A stretch of DNA of 64,000 bases, from NCBI RefSeq assembly GCF_003602005.1, contig NZ_QZWD01000012.1, forward strand, positions 62,001 through 126,000, read 5' to 3'. Position 1 is the stretch's first letter. The number at the start of each line of letters is the position of its first letter. The DNA is from Salinisphaera sp. Q1T1-3. GTDB taxonomy: Bacteria; Pseudomonadota; Gammaproteobacteria; Nevskiales; Salinisphaeraceae. The notes below the pieces were generated by a model that made no database searches, had not been told where the DNA came from, and saw only the letters and a list, made by a program, of their open reading frames with translations. The translations under genes were made by a program, and so were the position numbers. Positions 43,827 through 55,944 of this stretch are shown in pieces.

Positions 43827-44327
43827 CGCCGACCGGACACAGCCCGCACCCATCGGCAGCATATCGACGGCCGTCTTTCGGTGCCGTCCTCGGCCCGATG
43901 CCACGTGTCGCGCAACGGCGTCGCCCGGAGTCGTTCACCCACCGACCCGCCCGGTCGATTCGACGAGCCGAGCAGCGACCAAGGTACGCGCCGTCGAGAC
44001 CATTTCGGCATCGGCCCGTCGTCCGTTTTTCAATGGTTTCATGGCCGAGCCCGCCAGCTGGCGGGCTCGGGGCATGTTGCGCTGACGAAGGGTAACTACA
44101 TTGCCGCCTCGGCGGACGTATCCGACACATGGTACGGCCCATCCAGTGCAGCGCCCGCCGGATCAAGGATCGCAACACTGCCTCACGGAGCCGACAGACG
44201 GGCACGCCGGGCGGCCGGAGCGGCGCTTTGTGGTGCTGATCATGTGGTCCGACGAAGCCGGGGTCCACGACTTGCGTATCGCAGAATACAACTGGCGAGC
44301 GCCAACGCGGCGCTCACACGAAACATC
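43827..44327. other. Long intergenic region with a 26-base palindrome
   Basis: About 500 bases after cysE without a convincing gene. It contains the palindrome at 44045-44070 and, at 44299-44315, a 17-base stretch GCGCCAACGCGGCGCTC also found at the right end of family 2 copy A, so a relic of another element probably sits just before copy C. Confidence 0.5.
44045..44070. repeat. Perfect 26-base palindrome
   Basis: CCGAGCCCGCCAG is followed directly by its reverse complement, giving a 13+13 perfect inverted repeat without loop, 219 bases after the cysE stop. It may act as a cruciform or terminator-like structure, or as a binding site; its role is unknown. Confidence 0.6.
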
Positions 44328-44602
44328 CTAGGGTCTGTTGATGTTTCGTTCGAGCGCCTTTCGTCGAGAGACCGCCGTGTGTCCGGCAAGGCGCGAGTCG
44401 CCGGGCACCCATCGTCGATTTTTCATGGGCGGCCCAACCCGAAGGGACAAGCGCCCCAAAATCAAAAACACGACGGCAATCCAGCGTTCTAGCACGCTGG
44501 CGCAGAATGACACGCTATGCGTGCTATGCCTCGTCTTGCCGCCCATCGTCAATTTCAGGGCGCACTTGGCGCGGACTCGCACGACACATCAACAGGCCCT
44601 AG
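44328..44602 (+). mobile_element. Family 2 non-autonomous element, copy C
   Basis: About 275 bases from CTAGGGTCTGTTGATGT to ACATCAACAGGCCCTAG, with nearly perfect inverted ends and CTAG on both sides. It shares the CGAGAGACCGCCGTGTGTCC and CAAAATCAAAAACACGACGG blocks with the other copies, but the central hairpin has been deleted (the sequence jumps from GCGAGTCGCC to the CATCGTCGA block). The right CTAG supplies the TAG stop of the minus-strand gene ending at 44599. Confidence 0.88.
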
Positions 44603-45058: not shown

Positions 45059-45751
45059 GTGGCGAACTTTCGCACTCATTTGACCGTGGCGGCCGGTGTG
45101 GGCGCCGCTGCGACCAGCTACGGCCTGTATGCCGGATGGTGGACGCTGGTGCACGCGCCGAGTCTGGTGCTGCTGACCACGCTCGGCGGCATCATGCCGG
45201 ATATCGATGCCGACAAGTCGCATTCGGTCCGTCTGATCTTCACCGTGCTGGCCGTGGTGGCCGCGTTCATCGCACTGTCGATCGGGCGCGGCTATCTGTC
45301 GACGATGGGCGTGCTATGTCTGGCGCTCGGGCTCTATATCGCGATTCGTGACGGCGTGAGCGTGGGTTTCCGCATGACGACCCGCCACCGGGCGAGCTGG
45401 CACTCGCTGCTCGCAACCGCCGGGGTCACCGTGGCCACGAGCGTGATCAGCTATCGCTTTTTCGCCCAGCCGGCACGCGCTGCCTGGCTGGACGGTGGCG
45501 CCATGGCGCTCGGCATGGTCGTCCATCTGCTGCTCGACGAATGCTTTGCGATCGATCTCGAGGGTGCGCGTCTGAAGCGCTCGTTCGGTACCGCACTCAA
45601 GCTTTTCGATTATCGACGCCCGATCGCCACCGTGTTGATGGCAGGCGCGGCGATCGCGCTCGTCCCCTGGCTGCCGCCCTGGCCGGCCGCCTTCGGTACG
45701 GCGACGCGCGCCCTGCAGGCCGCGCTCGGCGGCAGCCAGCCGGGCGCCTGA
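45059..45751 (+). CDS. Metal-dependent hydrolase-like membrane protein (DUF457/YdjM)
   Basis: A 230-residue protein of the YdjM/LexA-regulated membrane-bound hydrolase group. The family hallmarks are NFRTHLTVAAGVGAAAT near the start with His, TLGGIMPDIDADKSHSVRLI with the Asp cluster, TRHRASWHSLLATAG with the His motif, and VHLLLDECFAIDLEG near residue 160. Four to five hydrophobic helices. Enzymatic activity is only predicted for the family. GTG 45059 follows a good promoter but has no clear ribosome-binding site, so the start is uncertain. Confidence 0.85.
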   Translation: MANFRTHLTVAAGVGAAATSYGLYAGWWTLVHAPSLVLLTTLGGIMPDIDADKSHSVRLIFTVLAVVAAFIALSIGRGYLSTMGVLCLALGLYIAIRDGVSVGFRMTTRHRASWHSLLATAGVTVATSVISYRFFAQPARAAWLDGGAMALGMVVHLLLDECFAIDLEGARLKRSFGTALKLFDYRRPIATVLMAGAAIALVPWLPPWPAAFGTATRALQAALGGSQPGA

Positions 45752-45812
45752 AACCGGGCCCGTGGCACGTGCCGCCCCACCGGGTATCGGAGCCAGGCCG
45801 GCACGGGCACGC

Positions 45813-46070
45813 GAGAGCCTGTTGATGTTCCGTGCGTGTCCGCGCCCCGTGCGCACTGCAATCGACGACGGCCGGCAAGACAGGGCGTAGCGCGCCTAGC
45901 GTGTCATTCGGTGCCAGCGTGCGGGAACGCTGGATGGCCGTCGTGTTGCTGCTCCCAGGGCGCTTGTCCGAAAGGGGCGCGCCGCTCACGAACAATCGAC
46001 AATGGCTGCCCTGCAGCGTTTTCAGTCCGGATCGTGGCACGCCACGATCGGCGGCTCGTCTCCGGTACCA
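45813..46070 (-). mobile_element. Family 2 element, decayed copy F
   Basis: A diverged copy in the same orientation as copy A. Recognisable are GAGCCTGTTGATG at the left, GCGTGTCATTCGGTGCCAGC and GCTGGATGGCCGTCGTGTTG (compare GCTGGATTGCCGTCGTGTTT in copy A), and the hairpin GATCGTGGCACGCCACGATC at 46031-46050. It lies between the DUF457 gene and ilvE. Confidence 0.7.
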
Positions 46071-46155
46071 TCGATGATGCACAATACACAGGATATCGAC
46101 CGGCCACGCCGACGGACGTACCCCGACCCGTCGTTTATCATGTGGCTCGGTGCCC

Positions 46156-47286
46156 ATGAGCGATGCCCAGCAATCGGAGACGTACGCAGTGCCCAGCCCC
46201 CGTTTTGAGATCCGCGCGACGACCACGCCTGTGTCAGACAATCTACGCGAGTCGATTCTGGCCGCCCCCGGGTTCGGCCAGTATTTCACCGATCACATGA
46301 GTCATGTGCGCTGGACGCGCGATGCCGGCTGGCACGGCGCGGAACTGGTGCCCTATGGTCCGCTCGCCCTGGACCCGGCCGCACCGGTCTTTCACTACGC
46401 ACAGGAAATCTTCGAGGGCTTGAAAGCCTATCGGCATGCAGACGGTTCGGTCTGGTGTTTCCGTCCGGAGCGCAACGCTGCACGGTTCCGTCGTTCCGCC
46501 GCACGTCTGGCACTGCCGCAGCTCGACGACGAAACATTCATTGAGTCACTGCGGGCGCTGGTCGCCCGGGATTCGGCCTGGGTCCCGACCCCACGCGATG
46601 CGCATGACGAATGCAGCCTCTATCTACGGCCGTTCATGATCGCCAACGGGCGATTTCTGGGTGTGAAACCGGCCGCGGAGGTGGATTACTACGTGATCGC
46701 CTCACCGGCCGCCTCTTATTTCAAGGGCGCCGGCAAACCGGTCTCGATCTGGCTGTCGTCGCATTACAACCGCGCCGCACCCGGCGGTACCGGCTTTGCC
46801 AAGACCGGCGGCAACTATGCTTCGTCGCTGGTTGCCCAGCAGGAAGCCATCGACCACGGCTGTGATCAGGTTGCCTTCCTCGACGCGGCGGAGAACAAAT
46901 GGGTCGAGGAACTTGGCGGGATGAATCTGTTCTTCGTCTATGCCGACGGCCGGCTGGTTACCCCGCCCACCGGCGGGACGATTCTGGAAGGTGTGACCCG
47001 CGATTCCGTGCTGACGCTGGCCGCCGATCTGGATCTGACTCCGGAGGAACGTCCGATCAGCATCGACGAGTGGCGTGACGGCGTGCGCAGCGGCGAGATC
47101 GTGGAAGTCTTTGCCTGCGGCACGGCTGCCGTGATCACGAGCATCGGCAAGCTGGTCACCGAAGACGAGACCATCGAGACGCCAGAGACCAACAACGACG
47201 TCAGCCAGCGACTGCGGCGCCAGCTTCTGGACATCCAGTACGGCCACAGCGCCGATACGCGCGGCTGGCTCACCCAGCTGGCCTGA
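46156..47286 (+). CDS. ilvE: Branched-chain amino acid aminotransferase
   Basis: A 376-residue class IV PLP aminotransferase that transfers the amino group to the keto acids of Leu, Ile and Val. The PLP lysine is in GGTGFAKTGGNYASSLVAQ (about residue 220), with HYAQEIFEGLKAYRHADGSV, LYLRPFMIANGRFLG and EELGGMNLFFVYADGRLVTP. The length and VTRDSVLTLAADL pattern match the larger BCAT form shared with eukaryotes and many bacteria. ATG 46156 is the family-like start; a GTG lies two codons upstream. Stands alone, after element copy F. Confidence 0.95.
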   Translation: MSDAQQSETYAVPSPRFEIRATTTPVSDNLRESILAAPGFGQYFTDHMSHVRWTRDAGWHGAELVPYGPLALDPAAPVFHYAQEIFEGLKAYRHADGSVWCFRPERNAARFRRSAARLALPQLDDETFIESLRALVARDSAWVPTPRDAHDECSLYLRPFMIANGRFLGVKPAAEVDYYVIASPAASYFKGAGKPVSIWLSSHYNRAAPGGTGFAKTGGNYASSLVAQQEAIDHGCDQVAFLDAAENKWVEELGGMNLFFVYADGRLVTPPTGGTILEGVTRDSVLTLAADLDLTPEERPISIDEWRDGVRSGEIVEVFACGTAAVITSIGKLVTEDETIETPETNNDVSQRLRRQLLDIQYGHSADTRGWLTQLA

Positions 47287-47590: not shown

Positions 47591-47946
47591 TCCAGGGCCT
47601 GTCAACACCTCGGGCGTGGCCGCGTTGCCGCCCAAAAACCGGCCACGCAAGGCGCATGGCCGGTTTTTACGCGCAACCCGACAGGACGGCCGTACGCGCC
47701 CGATGCCTTGCCTTGCAACCAAACGAGCGCCGGCGCGGCGCACGCGGGACGTGTTATTCACCCGGCATGAAAATAGATGATTTTTCGGGTTGATAATGCG
47801 CGTGTGCGACAGCACGCGCGCCACGGCCAACGGCCGTGAAGCCATTGAAAATAAAAAGACGGACAAGGGCCGGCGTTTCTTTCGATGGCGTTGAAAACAG
47901 CTGACGTCGTCAGCTGTTTTGGTGCCGGATTAATAACAGACCCTAG
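47591..47946 (+). mobile_element. Family 2 element, copy E, split by a family 1 insertion
   Basis: The left end CCAGGGCCTGTCAACAC starts at 47592 and the body shares ACGGCCGTACGC.CCCGATGCCTTG and AACGAGCGCCGGCGCGGCGC with copy B. The right end is interrupted: GACGTGT and ACAGACCCTAG lie on either side of a complete family 1 element and its TA duplication. Without the insertion the end would read GACGTGTAACAGACCCTAG plus one duplicated TA unit, like copy A. The final CTAG supplies the stop of the 3-hydroxyacyl-CoA dehydrogenase-type gene. Confidence 0.82.
47757..47933. mobile_element. Family 1 non-autonomous element, copy 2 (nested)
   Basis: A 177-base element starting TTCACCCGGCA and ending TGCCGGATTAA, flanked by TA at 47755-47756 and 47934-47935. 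About 95% identical to the copy at 10161. The first hairpin changes one closing pair from A-T to G-C and the second hairpin is fully paired here. It is inserted in the right end of family 2 copy E. Confidence 0.88.
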
Positions 47947-48893
47947 TCGATCGGCGGCGGCCCCAGCTCGGCCATCAGCTCGTTGAGCTTCACATAGGCC
48001 TTGTTGCGATAGGCGATCAGCTCCGGAATCCGCTCGGCCGGCACGTCGGTGAAGCCGCCGCCGCTCTTGGTGCCGAGCTTGCCGGACTCCACCAGCTCGG
48101 ACAGCACGCGCGGCGTCGCGAAGCGCTCCGGGAAATCGGTCTGCAACGACTTGTAGCAGAAGTTGTAGACATCCAGTCCGGCCATGTCCGCGATCGCGAA
48201 CGGCCCGAAGAACGGCAGCCGAAAACCGAAGGTGGTCCGCACGAGCGTATCGATGTCCTCGGCGGTGGCCACGCCCTCGTCGAGCAGCTGGGTCGCCTCA
48301 TGAAACAGCGCATACTGAAGACGGTTGAGCACGAAGCCTGTCACGTCGCGCACGACCGCGGTCTCCTTGCCGGTCTCATGCACGAACGCACAGGCCTGAT
48401 CGATCGTGGCCTGATCGGTGCTGGCATGCGGGATGACTTCCACACCCGGAATGAACGGCGACGGGTTGGAGAAATGCACGCCCAGGAACCGGCCGGGCGA
48501 TGTCACCGCCTCGGCCAGCGCGCCGATCGAGATCGTCGACGTATTGGAGGCGATGATGGCGTCGCCCGGGGCGGCCGCGGCGATACGGCGCAGCGTCTCG
48601 TGCTTGATCTCGATCTTCTCGGGCACCGCCTCCTCGACGAGCACGGCGTCGGCGACCGCGGTCTCGATGTCCTTGGCCGCGGTCAACCGGGCCTCGATGC
48701 GCTCGACGGCGTCGGCCGGGAACAGATCGTCAGCGACGAAATCCGCGGTTTCCTTCATGAGCCGCGCGCGATTGTCCTTGGTGACATCGAAGGAAACATC
48801 CGCGATGTGGACGTCGTAGCCGGCCAGGGCCATGACCTGGGCGATGCCGCCGCCCATGTAGCCCGAGCCGATGATAGCGATCTTGTCGGTCAT
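47943..48893 (-). CDS. 3-hydroxyacyl-CoA dehydrogenase-family protein, possibly a sugar-acid dehydrogenase
   Basis: A 316-residue NAD enzyme of the 3HCDH superfamily. The NAD site is AIIGSGYMGGGIAQVMALAG, the catalytic His is in LGVHFSNPSPFIPGVEVIPH, and Glu in LVEEAVPEKIEI. The C-terminal part (GFVLNRLQYALFHEATQLLD, RLPFFGPFAIADMAGLDVYN) resembles lambda-crystallin/L-gulonate 3-dehydrogenase more than beta-oxidation enzymes, as I recall those sequences. With a sugar-phosphate-isomerase-like gene 23 bases upstream, a sugar transporter and a GntR regulator nearby, a sugar-acid substrate is plausible but unproven. Its TAG stop is the CTAG edge of element copy E. Confidence 0.85.
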   Translation of the reverse strand: MTDKIAIIGSGYMGGGIAQVMALAGYDVHIADVSFDVTKDNRARLMKETADFVADDLFPADAVERIEARLTAAKDIETAVADAVLVEEAVPEKIEIKHETLRRIAAAAPGDAIIASNTSTISIGALAEAVTSPGRFLGVHFSNPSPFIPGVEVIPHASTDQATIDQACAFVHETGKETAVVRDVTGFVLNRLQYALFHEATQLLDEGVATAEDIDTLVRTTFGFRLPFFGPFAIADMAGLDVYNFCYKSLQTDFPERFATPRVLSELVESGKLGTKSGGGFTDVPAERIPELIAYRNKAYVKLNELMAELGPPPID

Positions 48894-48916: not shown

Positions 48917-49882
48917 TCAGTTCTGACGCACGCGGCTTTCGCCGAGTGCATAGTCGGCACTGCGTGGCAGCACCTGTTCGCGCAGATAACGCTGGTTCGA
49001 AGCCGAGACGGACAGACCGTCACCGCCGTAGTGCTCGCAGCAGATCACGCCCTGGAACCCGTTGGCGATGGCGATCTGGAAGGCCTTGCGATAGCTGATC
49101 AGGCCGGATTCCAGCGGCGCCGGCATCGCGACATACATATCGCGCGCGATGTCTTCGTCGCGCTGATAGTTCTTCACGTGCCAGTAGTTCGCATAGGGCA
49201 TGATCTTCTCGGCCATGGCCTCCCAGTTCTCGATCGGCCGATGCAACCGGATCAGGTTGCCCATGTCCGGATTCAGGCCCACACAGGGATGGTCGATGGC
49301 CTCGACGAGGGCGACCGAGGAGTCGGCCGTGCCGAGATAGGTGTCCTCGTACATTTCCAGCGAGAGAATCAGCCCGAGTTCCTCGGCGTGCTTGCCGAGT
49401 TCACGCAGACGAGCCACCGCCAGATCCCAGGCCTCACGCTCATCCGGGTCCTTGTAACCTTCGACGGTCCAGAACCAGAGCTGGGCCTTCTGGGCCGGTG
49501 TGAGCGCCTGATGCAGCCCGACCGAGACCACGCGCGAACCGAGCGCAGCAGCCGCTTCGAGCGTGCGATGGCTATAGTCCAGATTGGCCTGGCCGTTGGC
49601 GGCATCGATCACGCTGCTGCGCACGACCGAGATCGCCGGCAGACCGACACCGACATCGTCGGCGGCCTCCTTCAGGGCGGTCAGCCGTGCGCTCGACAGA
49701 TCGCCCGGCCGGACCCAGCCGTCGAACAGATCGACATCCGAGAAGCCGGCATCGCGGACTTCGGCGAATACATCGCGCCAGTGCGCCACGTCGGCCTCGT
49801 TGACGTGGCGCCCATCGTCGAGCGTGCCGGGAAATTGCAACAACGCGGCCGAAATCAACCAGTCTTGTGCGGTGTAGGGCAT
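48917..49882 (-). CDS. Sugar phosphate isomerase/epimerase-family TIM barrel
   Basis: A 321-residue protein of the AP-endonuclease-2-like xylose isomerase superfamily. The probable metal ligands are Glu in LILSLEMYED, Asp in VGLNPDMGN, His in YANYWHVKNYQ and Glu in VICCEHYGGDG. Members isomerise or epimerise sugars, inosose or keto-acids; the substrate is unknown here. ATG 49882 has GGAG six bases ahead. It is the first gene of a two-gene operon with the dehydrogenase, divergent from the GntR gene, with one of the two TGTTGAACA operators in the shared promoter region. Confidence 0.87.
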   Translation of the reverse strand: MPYTAQDWLISAALLQFPGTLDDGRHVNEADVAHWRDVFAEVRDAGFSDVDLFDGWVRPGDLSSARLTALKEAADDVGVGLPAISVVRSSVIDAANGQANLDYSHRTLEAAAALGSRVVSVGLHQALTPAQKAQLWFWTVEGYKDPDEREAWDLAVARLRELGKHAEELGLILSLEMYEDTYLGTADSSVALVEAIDHPCVGLNPDMGNLIRLHRPIENWEAMAEKIMPYANYWHVKNYQRDEDIARDMYVAMPAPLESGLISYRKAFQIAIANGFQGVICCEHYGGDGLSVSASNQRYLREQVLPRSADYALGESRVRQN

Positions 49883-50351
49883 AGGGGGCTCCATGGATAA
49901 TTGAGTGGACCGGCGTGTCATGCCGGGATCGCGTTGCGCGCCTCGCGGTCGGCAACCGACACAGCGGGCCGGGCCGGCACCGAGGCCGAACGCGGCGCCG
50001 CAGACCCCGGCGCTCGTCGATAAAGCCGGCCGCTGCGACTTGCATTAAGCGGCTCGGAGGCGTATCGAATCGAGACAAGGGCATGCAACCGAGACGAGCG
50101 CCGTTGCACGACGCGTATCTTCGCAGGGGGCGCGCGGCTTGCCGCGACGCCCCGGCGAGCCGCGAATATCGACGTGTCATGATGCGCTCCTCGGCTAATT
50201 ATTCGACATATACTATTTTTTGTTGAACATTTACATCAGACCGACTTTCGTCGGAGCTGGTTGACCGGTTCCGATCACCCGCGGACGGCCTTCGATCACG
50301 CGGGTGATATCATGTCCGGTCAGACTGTCTTGATCACAATCGTTTTCGCCG
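49883..50351. promoter_or_regulatory. Divergent promoter region of the sugar locus
   Basis: A 469-base gap between the isomerase and GntR genes with no gene. An AT-rich island at 50195-50240 holds TATACT (50209-50214, plus strand) as a possible -10 box, and on the minus strand TTCAAC and AATAAT 18 bases apart. The candidate operator TGTTGAACA at 50221-50229 overlaps the predicted start of one and the -35 of the other. Confidence 0.6.
50221..50229. promoter_or_regulatory. Candidate GntR operator, site 1
   Basis: TGTTGAACA is an inverted repeat (TGTT-G-AACA) followed by TTT. It is identical over 12 bases to the site at 51137. The GT-TGA-AC core fits the GT-N(0-3)-AC pattern known for operators of the FadR subfamily of GntR regulators. 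It lies between the isomerase and GntR genes. Confidence 0.65.
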
Positions 50352-51092
50352 ATGTCCCGACGCGCCGTGCAATCCGAACGCAATCTCAGCGAAGAGCTCG
50401 CGTCCGACATTCTGGCCGGCCGATATCAGCCCGGCGATTTCATCCCCAAGGAAATGCAGATCTGCGAGGCCTCCGGGCTCAGTCGCACGGTCGTGCGCCG
50501 GCATCTGGCCCAGCTGGTCGACGGCGGCCTGATCGAGCGGATCTCCGGCTACGGTTCGCGTGTCCGTGAAGTCTCCGAATGGCATATCCTCGATCCGCTC
50601 GTCACGCGGTGGCTGTCGCGCTACGCGGCCCCGAACGAGGAGATCCAGCGCGAAATCCTGTCGTTTCGCCTGTCCGTCGAGCCCCAGGTCGCGATGGTGG
50701 CCGCACGCAACGCCAGTGCCCGCGATCTGGTCGCCATCGAGGAAGCGTTCGAGGGCATGGCCCGGCACATGCGTGGTGCCGGCCAGAATGAGGCTCGTCG
50801 GCTGCACAGCGAATCCGACGTTGCCTTTCACGTGGCGATCTACCGTGCAACGCACAACATCGTCTGGGCTCAGCTGTCGCATATCCTGCGTCCGTCGATC
50901 GATCTGCTCGTCGTGGAATCCAACAGCAGCGCACGCGATCCGGATGACAGCCTCCAACGCCATCGCGATCTCATGGAGGCCATTCGAATGCGTCAGCCGC
51001 AGGCCGCCTTTCACGCGGCCTATGCCGTGCTCGAAGGCACCAGCCATGCGCTCGGCCTCAAGCATGAGCACCACGATCTGACCCCCAACTGA
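50352..51092 (+). CDS. GntR-family (FadR subfamily) transcriptional regulator
   Basis: A 246-residue regulator. The winged helix (about 10-75) has LSEELASDILAGRYQPGDFI and LSRTVVRRHLAQLVDGGLIE as recognition region. The C-terminal FCD helical bundle (about 95-235) carries the metal/ligand residues: ESDVAFHVAIYRATHN with Asp and His, and QRHRDLMEAIRMRQPQAAFH with His. Regulators of this type bind sugar acids or other small acids and usually repress neighbouring catabolic genes. The two TGTTGAACA sites flanking this gene are its likely targets. No second GntR gene is in the window. Confidence 0.92.
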   Translation: MSRRAVQSERNLSEELASDILAGRYQPGDFIPKEMQICEASGLSRTVVRRHLAQLVDGGLIERISGYGSRVREVSEWHILDPLVTRWLSRYAAPNEEIQREILSFRLSVEPQVAMVAARNASARDLVAIEEAFEGMARHMRGAGQNEARRLHSESDVAFHVAIYRATHNIVWAQLSHILRPSIDLLVVESNSSARDPDDSLQRHRDLMEAIRMRQPQAAFHAAYAVLEGTSHALGLKHEHHDLTPN

Positions 51093-51136
51093 CCCCGAGG
51101 GACGGCGCGCCCATGCCGGTCTCAACCCAAAGTCTA

Positions 51137-51145
51137 TGTTGAACA
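51137..51145. promoter_or_regulatory. Candidate GntR operator, site 2
   Basis: A second TGTTGAACA followed by TTT, 45 bases after the GntR stop and 64 bases before the sugar transporter ATG. It overlaps a possible -35 (TTGAAC), which fits repression of the transporter by the adjacent regulator. Confidence 0.65.
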
Positions 51146-51208
51146 TTTGATCGCATAAGTTGATTGTTTCCGCCGAGCGCAGCGCCCCTGCGTCCACGGA
51201 GGAAACCC

Positions 51209-52615
51209 ATGAGCACATCACAGACCGTTGCGCCGGAGCGTACCCCCGCCGCTCGCGGCACGATCTGGACCATCGGCTTCGTTGCCGCCCTCGCCGGCCT
51301 GCTGTTCGGCATGGATATCGGCGTCATTTCCGGCGCGCTGCCGTTGATCAAGGACGCGTTCGCGATCAGCGATTTCATGCAGGAGATGATCGTCAGCGCC
51401 ATGATGCTGGGCGCGGCCATCGGTGCCGCCGGCAGCGGCACCATTTCGCGGCGCTACGGTCGTCGTCGCACCCTGCTCATCAGCGGCCTCGTCTTCGCCC
51501 TCGGAGCGATCGCCTGTGCCCTGTCCTGGTCGCCCGGTGCACTCGTCGGGGCCCGCATCCTGCTCGGGATCGCGGTCGGCATGTCGTCCTACATCGCGCC
51601 GATCTACCTGTCCGAGATCGCACCGGAATACATCCGCGGCCGGCTGATCTCGTTCTATCAGCTGATGATCATGGGCGGCATTCTCGCGGCCTATCTCGTC
51701 AACGCCGTATTCGTCGACCTGGGCGGCTGGCGCCTGATGCTCGGCGTCATCGCCCTGCCGGCACTGGCCATGGTGATCGGCATGGCCGCCCTGCCGCGCA
51801 GCCCGCGCTGGCTGATGGACTCCGGCCACGAGCACGAGGCACGACAGGTCCTGGCACAGCTGCGCGGCGACGACGCGAGACGCATCGATGCCGAAATCGA
51901 CCTGATCCGCAAGAGTGCGAACCTGTCCGAGGCCGGCTGGTCGCTTTTCAAACGCAACCGGAATTTCCGGCGCTCCACCGGACTGGGCATGCTGCTGCAG
52001 TTCATGCAGCAATTCACCGGCGCCAACGTCATCCTCTACTACGCGCCCCACATTCTTGAACTGGCCGGCTACGCGAGTGCTCGAGAACAGCTCTGGGGCA
52101 CGGTGTTGATCGGCCTGCTGATGACGCTGGCCACGTTCATCGCCATCGGTTTCGTCGACCGCCTGGGGCGCAAGCCGCTGCTCTACACCGGGTTTTCGGT
52201 GATGGGCATCTGCATGGTGTTGCTGGGCACGCTCTATGAATACGGCCTGGACAGCGCCTCGGCCCAGTATGTCGCCATCGGTCTGCTGTGCCTGTTCGTG
52301 ATCAGCTATGCGATGTCGGCCGCGCCGATGGTATGGATTCTGTGCTCCGAGATTCAGCCGCTCAAGGGCCGGGATTTCGGGGTAACCTGCTCGACGGTCA
52401 CGAACTGGGTCTCGAACATGGTCATCGGCGCCACGTTCCTGACCCTACTCAACGTCGCCGGCAATGCCGGAACCTTCGGGCTCTATGCCGCGCTCAATTT
52501 CCTGTTCATCGTTTTCACACTCCTGCTCATCCCCGAAACCAAGGGGATCTCACTGGAGCGCATCGAAGAAAATCTGATGGCCGGCAAGCCGCTGCGCCGG
52601 ATCGGCATCAATTGA
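51209..52615 (+). CDS. Sugar porter family MFS transporter
   Basis: A 468-residue, twelve-helix sugar:proton symporter. Family motifs: GLLFGMDIGVISGALPLIKD in TM1, RRYGRRRTLLISGL between TM2 and TM3, PIYLSEIAPEYIRGRLISFY after TM4, the substrate motif QFMQQFTGANVILYYAPHIL in TM7, and FVDRLGRKPLLYTG before TM9, ending PETKGISLERIEE. These are the marks of XylE/GalP-like carriers. ATG 51209 has GGAGG seven bases ahead; the longer frame upstream is not used. The sugar carried is unknown but should be the substrate of the regulated isomerase/dehydrogenase genes. Confidence 0.94.
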   Translation: MSTSQTVAPERTPAARGTIWTIGFVAALAGLLFGMDIGVISGALPLIKDAFAISDFMQEMIVSAMMLGAAIGAAGSGTISRRYGRRRTLLISGLVFALGAIACALSWSPGALVGARILLGIAVGMSSYIAPIYLSEIAPEYIRGRLISFYQLMIMGGILAAYLVNAVFVDLGGWRLMLGVIALPALAMVIGMAALPRSPRWLMDSGHEHEARQVLAQLRGDDARRIDAEIDLIRKSANLSEAGWSLFKRNRNFRRSTGLGMLLQFMQQFTGANVILYYAPHILELAGYASAREQLWGTVLIGLLMTLATFIAIGFVDRLGRKPLLYTGFSVMGICMVLLGTLYEYGLDSASAQYVAIGLLCLFVISYAMSAAPMVWILCSEIQPLKGRDFGVTCSTVTNWVSNMVIGATFLTLLNVAGNAGTFGLYAALNFLFIVFTLLLIPETKGISLERIEENLMAGKPLRRIGIN

Positions 52616-54981: not shown

Positions 54982-55295
54982 CTAGGGCGTGTTGATGTTT
55001 CGTTCGAGCGCGTTTTCGTCGAGAGACCGCCGTGTGTCCGGCAAGGCGCGAGTCGCCGATCGTGGCGTGCCACGATCGGCGACTCGCAACGCCGCAGGGC
55101 GCTCATCGTCGAGTTTCATGGGCGGCCCAGCCCTTCGGGACAAGCGCCCCAAAATCAAAAACACGACGGCAATACAGCGTTCTAGCACGCTGGCGCAGAA
55201 TGACACGCTATGCCTGCGACGCCTCGTCTTGCCGCCCATCGTCAATTTCAGGGCGCGCTTGGCGCGGACTCGCACGACACATCAACAGGCCCTAG
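54982..55295 (+). mobile_element. Family 2 non-autonomous element, copy D (most complete)
   Basis: 314 bases including CTAG at each end. The inverted ends are CTAGGGCGTGTTGATGT and ACATCAACAGGCCCTAG. The central hairpin at about 55047-55087 has perfect 18-pair arms (GCGAGTCGCCGATCGTGG and its complement) around CGTG. The blocks CAAAATCAAAAACACGACGG and CCGTGTGTCCGGCAAGGCGC are shared with copies A-C. The right edge lies four bases beyond the stop of the FixJ-type regulator gene. No open frame of a transposase. Confidence 0.9.
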
Positions 55296-55299
55296 CGGT

Positions 55300-55944
55300 T
55301 CAGGGCCGTGCGGGCCCGCGATTCTCCATCGCCGTCGGCGATGCCCCGGTGGCGGTCAGGTGCAGACGCACCAACTCGGCCAGCGAACCGGCCGACATCT
55401 TGTGCATGACGTTGGCCCGGTGTAGTTCGACGGTCTTGGGGCTGATGTCCAGTCGTCGCGCGATATGCTTGTTGGACCACCCCGCCACGACCTCGTCCAT
55501 GACATCCACCTCGCGCGGCGTCAGGCGGCCGAGGCGCGCGCGTGCCTCGTCGCTCTGGCGACGTTCGGCCATCATCGCCTGGCTATCGTCAATGGCCTCG
55601 CGCACGGTGGCGATCAGTAGATCGTCATCGACCGGCTTCTCCAGGAAATGCACGGCGCCGCCCCGCATGGCCTCGACCGTCGCCGCGACATCGCCGTAGC
55701 CGGACATGAAGATGATCGGCAGGTGCGGATCGGTCTGGCAGATCGCACGCTGGACAGCCAGACCGCTCATGTCCGGGATCCGCAGATCCAACAGCACGCA
55801 GCCGGAATGAGGCGTGCGCGAACGGTCGACGAACGCATGGCCCGAGGCATATTCCGCACAATCGACCGGGATCGTTTCCAAAAGACACCGCAACGAGTCG
55901 CGAACGGCGTCGTCGTCATCCACGATGTGTACCAGCGCATCCAT
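55300..55944 (-). CDS. FixJ-type response regulator (REC plus LuxR HTH)
   Basis: A 214-residue transcriptional regulator. The receiver (about 1-118) has HIVDDDDAVRDSLRCL, phosphoacceptor Asp in CVLLDLRIPDMSGL and Lys in LEKPVDD. The LuxR-type helix-turn-helix (about 145-205) reads LTPREVDVMDEVVAGWSNKH with KTVELHRANVMHKM. FixJ/TodR-like regulators usually work with a PAS-containing kinase; none is adjacent. ATG 55944 fits the receiver start. The TauE/SafE exporter gene lies directly upstream on the same strand, so it may be in its operon or regulate it. Confidence 0.92.
   Translation of the reverse strand: MDALVHIVDDDDAVRDSLRCLLETIPVDCAEYASGHAFVDRSRTPHSGCVLLDLRIPDMSGLAVQRAICQTDPHLPIIFMSGYGDVAATVEAMRGGAVHFLEKPVDDDLLIATVREAIDDSQAMMAERRQSDEARARLGRLTPREVDVMDEVVAGWSNKHIARRLDISPKTVELHRANVMHKMSAGSLAELVRLHLTATGASPTAMENRGPARP

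Follow-up and report, generated by a model that had tools for sequence, protein, structure and literature searches.

The closest described system is that of AraR2, a predicted GntR-family regulator of L-arabinose and L-arabinonate use in Halomonas HL-48 and HL-93, whose predicted targets are araD-araT-araR2-araA, araE and a TRAP transporter (PMC5507952). By sequence, the nearest solved protein is DgoR of Escherichia coli (PDB 7C7E; E=3e-21), which has a sugar-acid ligand and is reported to bind two inverted repeats at its own promoter (PMC7674646). Searches of the literature for L-arabinonate together with GntR or AraR2 and Halomonas returned only PMC5507952, and those for the core string of the sites described below together with GntR returned only work on biotin uptake in C. 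glutamicum.

We analyzed a 64,000-nucleotide stretch (the window) of the Salinisphaera sp. Q1T1-3 genome, here G000. The window encodes an AraR2-like GntR/FCD regulator of 246 aa (50352..51092, plus strand). On either side of this gene is an exact copy of the 12-base string TGTTGAACATTT, site 1 at 50221-50232 and site 2 at 51137-51148, both on the plus strand. The original prediction held that such a pair is unlikely to arise by chance, that it contains an inverted repeat of the GT-N3-AC type, and that it marks FadR-subfamily operators at both promoters around the regulator gene. The observation itself is confirmed: the two copies are the sole exact ones in the 3,871,222-base assembly (59 contigs; two forward, none in reverse), and a reversed-pattern control gave 0 and 0. 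Window-derived Markov models of order 1-3 predict 0.07-0.18 copies per 3.87 Mb. The inverted repeat is seen as TGT-TGA-ACA. With up to two mismatches, three matches occur in the window versus 1.14 expected, and 9 of 100 shuffles also reach three. It is therefore exactness rather than a loose motif that is the remarkable feature. The neighboring GntR-type regulator very probably docks on a sequence that includes the repeated string.

Site 1 is best described on the minus strand, where its core reads TGTTCAACA. On this strand, a partner palindrome TGTCGAATA is found at 50200..50208 (seven of eight positions; start-to-start spacing 21) and a box, GACGAAAGTC, at 50243..50252, 13 bp upstream of the core. 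The standard gap between box and core is 2 bp, and the site 1 box lies 11 bp beyond that position, a spacing shared with G010 and G013. A sigma-70-like promoter match for the isomerase operon (50198..50226, minus strand; TCAACA-17-AATAAT) overlaps both the core and the partner. It matches 9 of 12 consensus positions, with 0.3 such matches expected in shuffles, and is the only match between 49850 and 51300. Having the -35 element in the core and the -10 element over the partner fits promoter occlusion. The operon faced by this putative promoter encodes a xylose-isomerase-like TIM barrel protein (48917..49885, minus strand; Pfam AP_endonuc_2; ATG taken at 49885), followed by a 3-hydroxyacyl-CoA-dehydrogenase-type NAD oxidoreductase (47943..48893, minus strand; Pfam 3HCDH_N/3HCDH) whose partners in G013 and G001 are 83% and 78% identical. 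Both genes are predicted targets.

At site 2, a box, CCAAAGTCTA (51127..51136, plus strand), abuts the core, and a weak partner half-site AAGTTGATTG (51157..51166, plus strand) falls short of the strict seven-of-eight partner threshold; the same string is found at the same spacing in G013. Site 2 is the predicted operator of a sugar porter family MFS transporter (51209..52615, plus strand; ATG taken at 51209) that was identified by Pfam Sugar_tr and NCBIfam TIGR00879, the latter above cut-off. A porter 69% identical to it stands after the regulator ortholog in Kushneria. The promoter scan of 49850-51300 found no sigma-70-like match at site 2. The expected overlap with a -35 element therefore holds for site 1, toward the isomerase gene, and not for site 2. 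Site 1 appears to be laid out as the promoter of the divergent isomerase operon and not of the regulator gene, for which autoregulation is putative.

In G010 and G013, a GntP permease heads the isomerase operon, where the window has a leader of about 300 bases (49886-50200). A GntP remnant between the isomerase gene and site 1 was considered and rejected (best tblastn E=5.4). Separately, common strings in mechanical ORF translations at 43881-44582, 45597-46289, 54982-55699 and L116:1255-1557 hint at a dispersed repeat that is present in several intergenic regions of the window and before the GntP gene on C6.

The regulator has an N-terminal winged helix (Pfam GntR, 1.7e-13) and a C-terminal FCD domain (1.8e-19), both above cut-off. 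Scores were below the NCBIfam cut-offs for LldR, GlcC, PdhR, NanR, UxuR and FadR, with LldR the best at 72 bits versus the 311 required. Residues D156, H160 and H204 of the FCD domain align with the DgoR metal ligands D146, H150 and H195. A contact argument for Met35 is weak, position 28 of the published protein having been mapped onto residue 35 by us; this residue is Leu or Ile in some Halomonadaceae orthologs and Arg in none of those inspected.

Regulator orthologs were found in 6 of the 60 relatives searched. The core TGTTSAACA occurs near the regulator in four of these six orthologous loci (G010, G013, G007 and G005); none was seen near the regulator of G014, and that of G001 lies at a contig end. 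Absence of the motif from orthologous loci would have counted against the original prediction. Alignment of intergenic sites revealed a composite that, in one reading direction, consists of the box ACNAAAGTMTA, the core TGTTGAACA, N11 and the partner TGTTCAACA. In this unit, two palindromes at a distance of 20 bp are accompanied by a box on one side only. The composite lies between regulator and porter in five of seven Kushneria loci. In K. aurantia and in Phytohalomonas, it precedes the gene that follows the regulator, and the seventh Kushneria locus, that of K. sinocarnis, has only weak sites between regulator and porter. The TKGT-N3-ACMA-type palindrome of the FadR subfamily is represented by ATGT-TGA-ACAT at the conserved sites of orthologous loci, which are predicted operators. 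Comparative evidence supports a FadR-subfamily (GntR/FCD) operator and a testable regulon consensus, of which the 12-mer is one arm only.

The spacing of the composite is also evident in loci collected in a model-free way. Eighteen loci, retrieved through either the regulator or the bare core, contain 19 exact cores. A partner (at least seven of eight positions) occurs at +20 in six of them, with at most one at any other offset, and AAAG occurs at -8 in eight and at -19 in two. The remaining 13 cores have no +20 partner, and some are in coding sequence. In 41 loci, 24 of which were chosen with models that include the partner, 43 of 61 non-redundant cores have a partner at +20 (other offsets, at most one each), and 28 have AAAG at -8 (next best offset, two). 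Because symmetric pairs are read twice, 66 core instances correspond to 32 distinct paired operators and 19 unpaired cores. Both window copies are among the unpaired cores under the strict +20 partner definition. We did not adopt an interpretation of the AAAGT box as a sigma-70 spacer because the promoter scan finds no promoter at site 2; some Salinisphaera sites fit by eye and Kushneria sites do not. The occurrence of this one-sided box in two families raises a question regarding how FadR-type dimers assemble on DNA.

The short core alone is a poor guide to the regulon. Markov models predict 8.5-29 copies of the 9-base core per genome, and WTGTTGAACAW was found in all 17 Salinisphaeraceae genomes, with 3-15 copies in the seven that have the regulator and 3-9 in the ten that do not. 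The bare core was rejected as a regulon marker, given these similar counts. One exact ATGTTGAACAT, at C54:47455, lies within a predicted gene. For a genome-wide scan, the composite is required, as the frequency of the short core is close to background. A motif at random frequency would have counted against the original prediction; this applies to the short core genome-wide and not to the composite model.

We built a sequence-only model (R1) from 11 sites, all from genomes other than G000. Excluded were the GntP-type promoters of G010 and G013 (different spacing), the GPH site of G007, which has a one-base insertion, and the K. sinocarnis locus, which lacks a clear composite, as well as every G000 site. 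In G000 (3.87 Mb), R1 identified sites at C58:12167 (E=2.4e-7) and C58:16768 (E=1.5e-6) and site 2 of the window (E=4.7e-5; model positions 1-29 of 41). Site 1 was a marginal fourth (E=2.7), and no further match at E<=10 was present among the 150 of 452 first-look candidates that were scored. Matches at E<1e-3 occurred in six of seven regulator-bearing versus none of ten regulator-less Salinisphaeraceae genomes, the best E values of the latter being 0.15 and 0.18; four of the six matched genomes had contributed training sites, and G000 and G001 had not. G010 has no R1 match, and its regulator has an internal stop. The gene (L043:9100-9615) contains one TAG within the match, and the genome is 81% complete. 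A site at C6:18620, before a GntP permease, was rejected as a confident target: it is a core without partner or box, and R1 does not match it. With the GntP encoded in the G010/G013 operon, this permease shares only 39% identity.

A second model (R2) was built from eight Salinisphaeraceae sites, omitting site 1, the C6 site and the GntP-type promoters. In eight Halomonadaceae genomes, the best R2 matches have E values of 2.2e-6 to 4.5e-3. The best match adjoins the regulator in six, and in the other two it precedes a mutarotase (86% identical to that of C58) and a porter (74% identical to that of the window). Of 61 Halomonadaceae genomes, scored with stricter filters, 35 have a regulator ortholog and 26 do not; R2 matched 34 and 1 of these, respectively, at E<=0.1 and 28 and 0 at E<=0.01, although Fisher values for such counts overstate independence because the genomes are related. 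The exceptions are G109, which has an ortholog and no match, and G095, which has a partial match (0.029) and no ortholog. The line defining orthologs (at least 59% identity, versus at most 54% for the next group) was set after the gap was seen. This search gave 62 match rows, and regions were fetched for 20 of the 35 matched genomes. Separately, of 57 pattern-matched stretches, 13 were confirmed, with L091 (27% identity) left out. Halomonadaceae also have further regulator paralog groups at 43-54% identity. Genomes with paralog groups only (e.g., G078, G097, G111, G116 and G122) gave no R2 match at E<=0.1; therefore, the motif of the paralogs probably differs.

The genes beside the sites point to use of L-arabinose or arabinosides. 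In G000, one C58 site precedes a sugar porter (start codon assumed), a GPH transporter and GH51 ArfA, and the other precedes a mutarotase and an ABC sugar transporter set. A site precedes an IlvD/EDD dehydratase in G007 and G005; the G007 enzyme scores 888.6 versus the NCBIfam L-arabinonate dehydratase cut-off of 882 and is followed by an SDR. In G001, one site is before a mutarotase/ABC set, and another lies some 770 bases upstream of an ORF that matches aldehyde dehydrogenases and AraD1. Assignments of the ArfA arabinofuranosidase, L-arabinonate dehydratase and AraD1 are above curated cut-offs, and those of the mutarotase, ABC and MFS transporters were made by Pfam. In each of the 20 fetched Halomonadaceae regions, the site is close to homologs of IlvD/EDD, AraD1, Gfo/Idh, lactonase-like or porter proteins, and the regulator ortholog is also present in 16. 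The site-adjacent genes correspond to the oxidative L-arabinose set as described for Halomonas (PMC5507952). From the position of the predicted sites next to ArfA, mutarotase, L-arabinonate dehydratase, AraD1 and Gfo/Idh genes, we predict control of L-arabinose and L-arabonate genes. In G016, an exact core occurs about 18 bases before an L-arabinonate dehydratase homolog (L167:7462); this genome has neither a regulator match at E<=1e-20 nor a composite.

The sites may, in principle, have origins other than binding by the GntR/FCD protein. A short string might arise twice by chance in AT-rich intergenic DNA, given how often the 9-base core is expected and the marginal model match of site 1, but the tests with models from other genomes and across families make coincidence barely credible. 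The sites could instead be operators of another co-located regulator, such as the LysR-type AraR of the Halomonas ara locus. A LysR gene does occur within the same Halomonadaceae cluster (L150), and the published reconstruction for Halomonas involves two regulators and two motifs (PMC5507952). However, GT-N3-AC palindromes suit the FadR subfamily, the GntR gene is the regulator adjoining the site at the window and Kushneria porter loci, and presence of the ortholog predicts sites genome by genome. We consider assignment to a different regulator very unlikely.

It is a realistic possibility, although not the one we favor, that a second protein (an activator or promoter element) accounts for the AAAGT box while the regulator binds the palindromes, so that two factors are involved. 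The box is one-sided and strongly conserved where present: in 40 sites chosen for AAAG or AAGG at -8, the unselected position -10 is C in all 40 and -11 is A in 31. In the isomerase/GntP-type promoters it is also shifted, by 11 bp or roughly one helical turn, but all of these examples come from a single operon whose promoters are orthologous in three genomes. Moreover, extra, weaker boxes 7-12 nt from the site center are reported for GntR-family operators (PMC4494728), and the AAAGT box, in which GT is also present, lies at about this distance. It may be either an extra half-site, as in GntR-family operators, or the mark of another factor. Our preferred reading, to which we assign high confidence on comparative sequence grounds, is that both 12-mer copies serve as operators for the GntR/FCD regulator whose gene they flank, with each copy forming one arm of a composite.

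We infer binding, repression rather than activation, the ligand and the role of the AAAGT box from what is observed, namely, the sites, their architecture and conservation, their co-occurrence with the regulator and their position beside L-arabinose and arabinoside genes. Under the preferred reading, two regulator dimers would sit on the same face of the DNA, as the palindromes are about two helical turns apart, and would lie over the promoter. Without inducer, dimers would cover the isomerase/dehydrogenase promoter at site 1 (minus strand) and the porter promoter at site 2 (plus strand), and arabinoside genes elsewhere in the genome would be covered likewise. A pentose-derived acid, e.g., L-arabonate, may enter the FCD pocket and cause release of the dimers.

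Perhaps the most unexpected predicted target is the operon at site 1. Across 17 Salinisphaeraceae genomes, the TIM-barrel protein (E<=1e-40) is found only in G000, G001, G010 and G013, and close orthologs (at least 80%) of L-arabinonate dehydratase are found in G005, G007, G014 and G016. The two never occur in one genome, and nine genomes have neither. Each of the four genomes with the TIM-barrel protein has the regulator, as do three of the four with the dehydratase, the exception being G016. In G001, the TIM-barrel/3HCDH pair follows a xylose-dehydrogenase-like SDR that in G007 follows the dehydratase, and a 15-residue IlvD-like stretch (11 of 15 identical) is found upstream. NCBIfam matches to the TIM-barrel protein were all weak and below cut-off. 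Given the mutual exclusion in this small sample of 17 genomes, the site 1 operon may do the job of the dehydratase by other chemistry. We suggest, tentatively and with considerable doubt, that it is an undescribed replacement for L-arabinonate dehydratase in which the dehydrogenase oxidizes a pentonate at C3 and the TIM-barrel protein isomerizes or decarboxylates the resulting 3-oxo acid. The predicted operator ties these two enzymes of unassigned substrate to pentose catabolism.

Overall, a 12-base repeat leads to a defined operator and a predicted regulon in two halophilic families, and it indicates the class of sugar sensed and the genes to test. The likeness to AraR2 lies in the GntR family and in the L150 locus of G123, where the order is IlvD/EDD - EamA - regulator - Gfo/Idh. 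On the other side of the operator is a TRAP operon; the locus also includes a LysR gene and, ahead of AraD1 and an aldehyde dehydrogenase, a further operator. The regulator ortholog in this gene order has 63-65% identity, and the same ORF order is found in L153, where the ORF at the EamA position is putatively EamA-like. That the L150 genes are the published araD, araT and araA is our reading, from gene order only. With a Halomonadaceae ortholog in the AraR2 gene order, the sugar-response system appears to have been predicted already in part. Unlike the AraR2 regulon, that of Salinisphaera is predicted to include a sugar porter, a GPH transporter, ArfA and the isomerase/dehydrogenase operon. 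The gene order of the window locus also differs from the AraR2 group, and the likeness to HL-48 and HL-93 is by described gene order and not by motif. Neither the composite, with a box on one side only, nor the alternative operon appeared in the literature searched, although the supplement of PMC5507952 might hold the composite.

DgoR has in common with the regulator the FadR subfamily and the aligned, conserved D, H and H metal ligands, and differs in its distant sequence, its D-galactonate ligand and its other target genes. The extra boxes described for GntR-family operators consist of a palindrome and a half-site 7-12 nt from its center, as here (PMC4494728). As described there, such boxes are weaker than the site, whereas here the box, where present, is about as conserved as the core, and a second palindrome is found at a fixed 20 bp, unlike in those operators. 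AraR of Bacillus similarly combines a GntR-type DNA-binding domain with an arabinose regulon, but its C-terminal domain is of the GalR/LacI type (PMC4494728) and that of the window regulator is FCD. Against these systems, the new leads are the AAAGT box and the isomerase/dehydrogenase operon, a seeming substitute for arabonate dehydratase.
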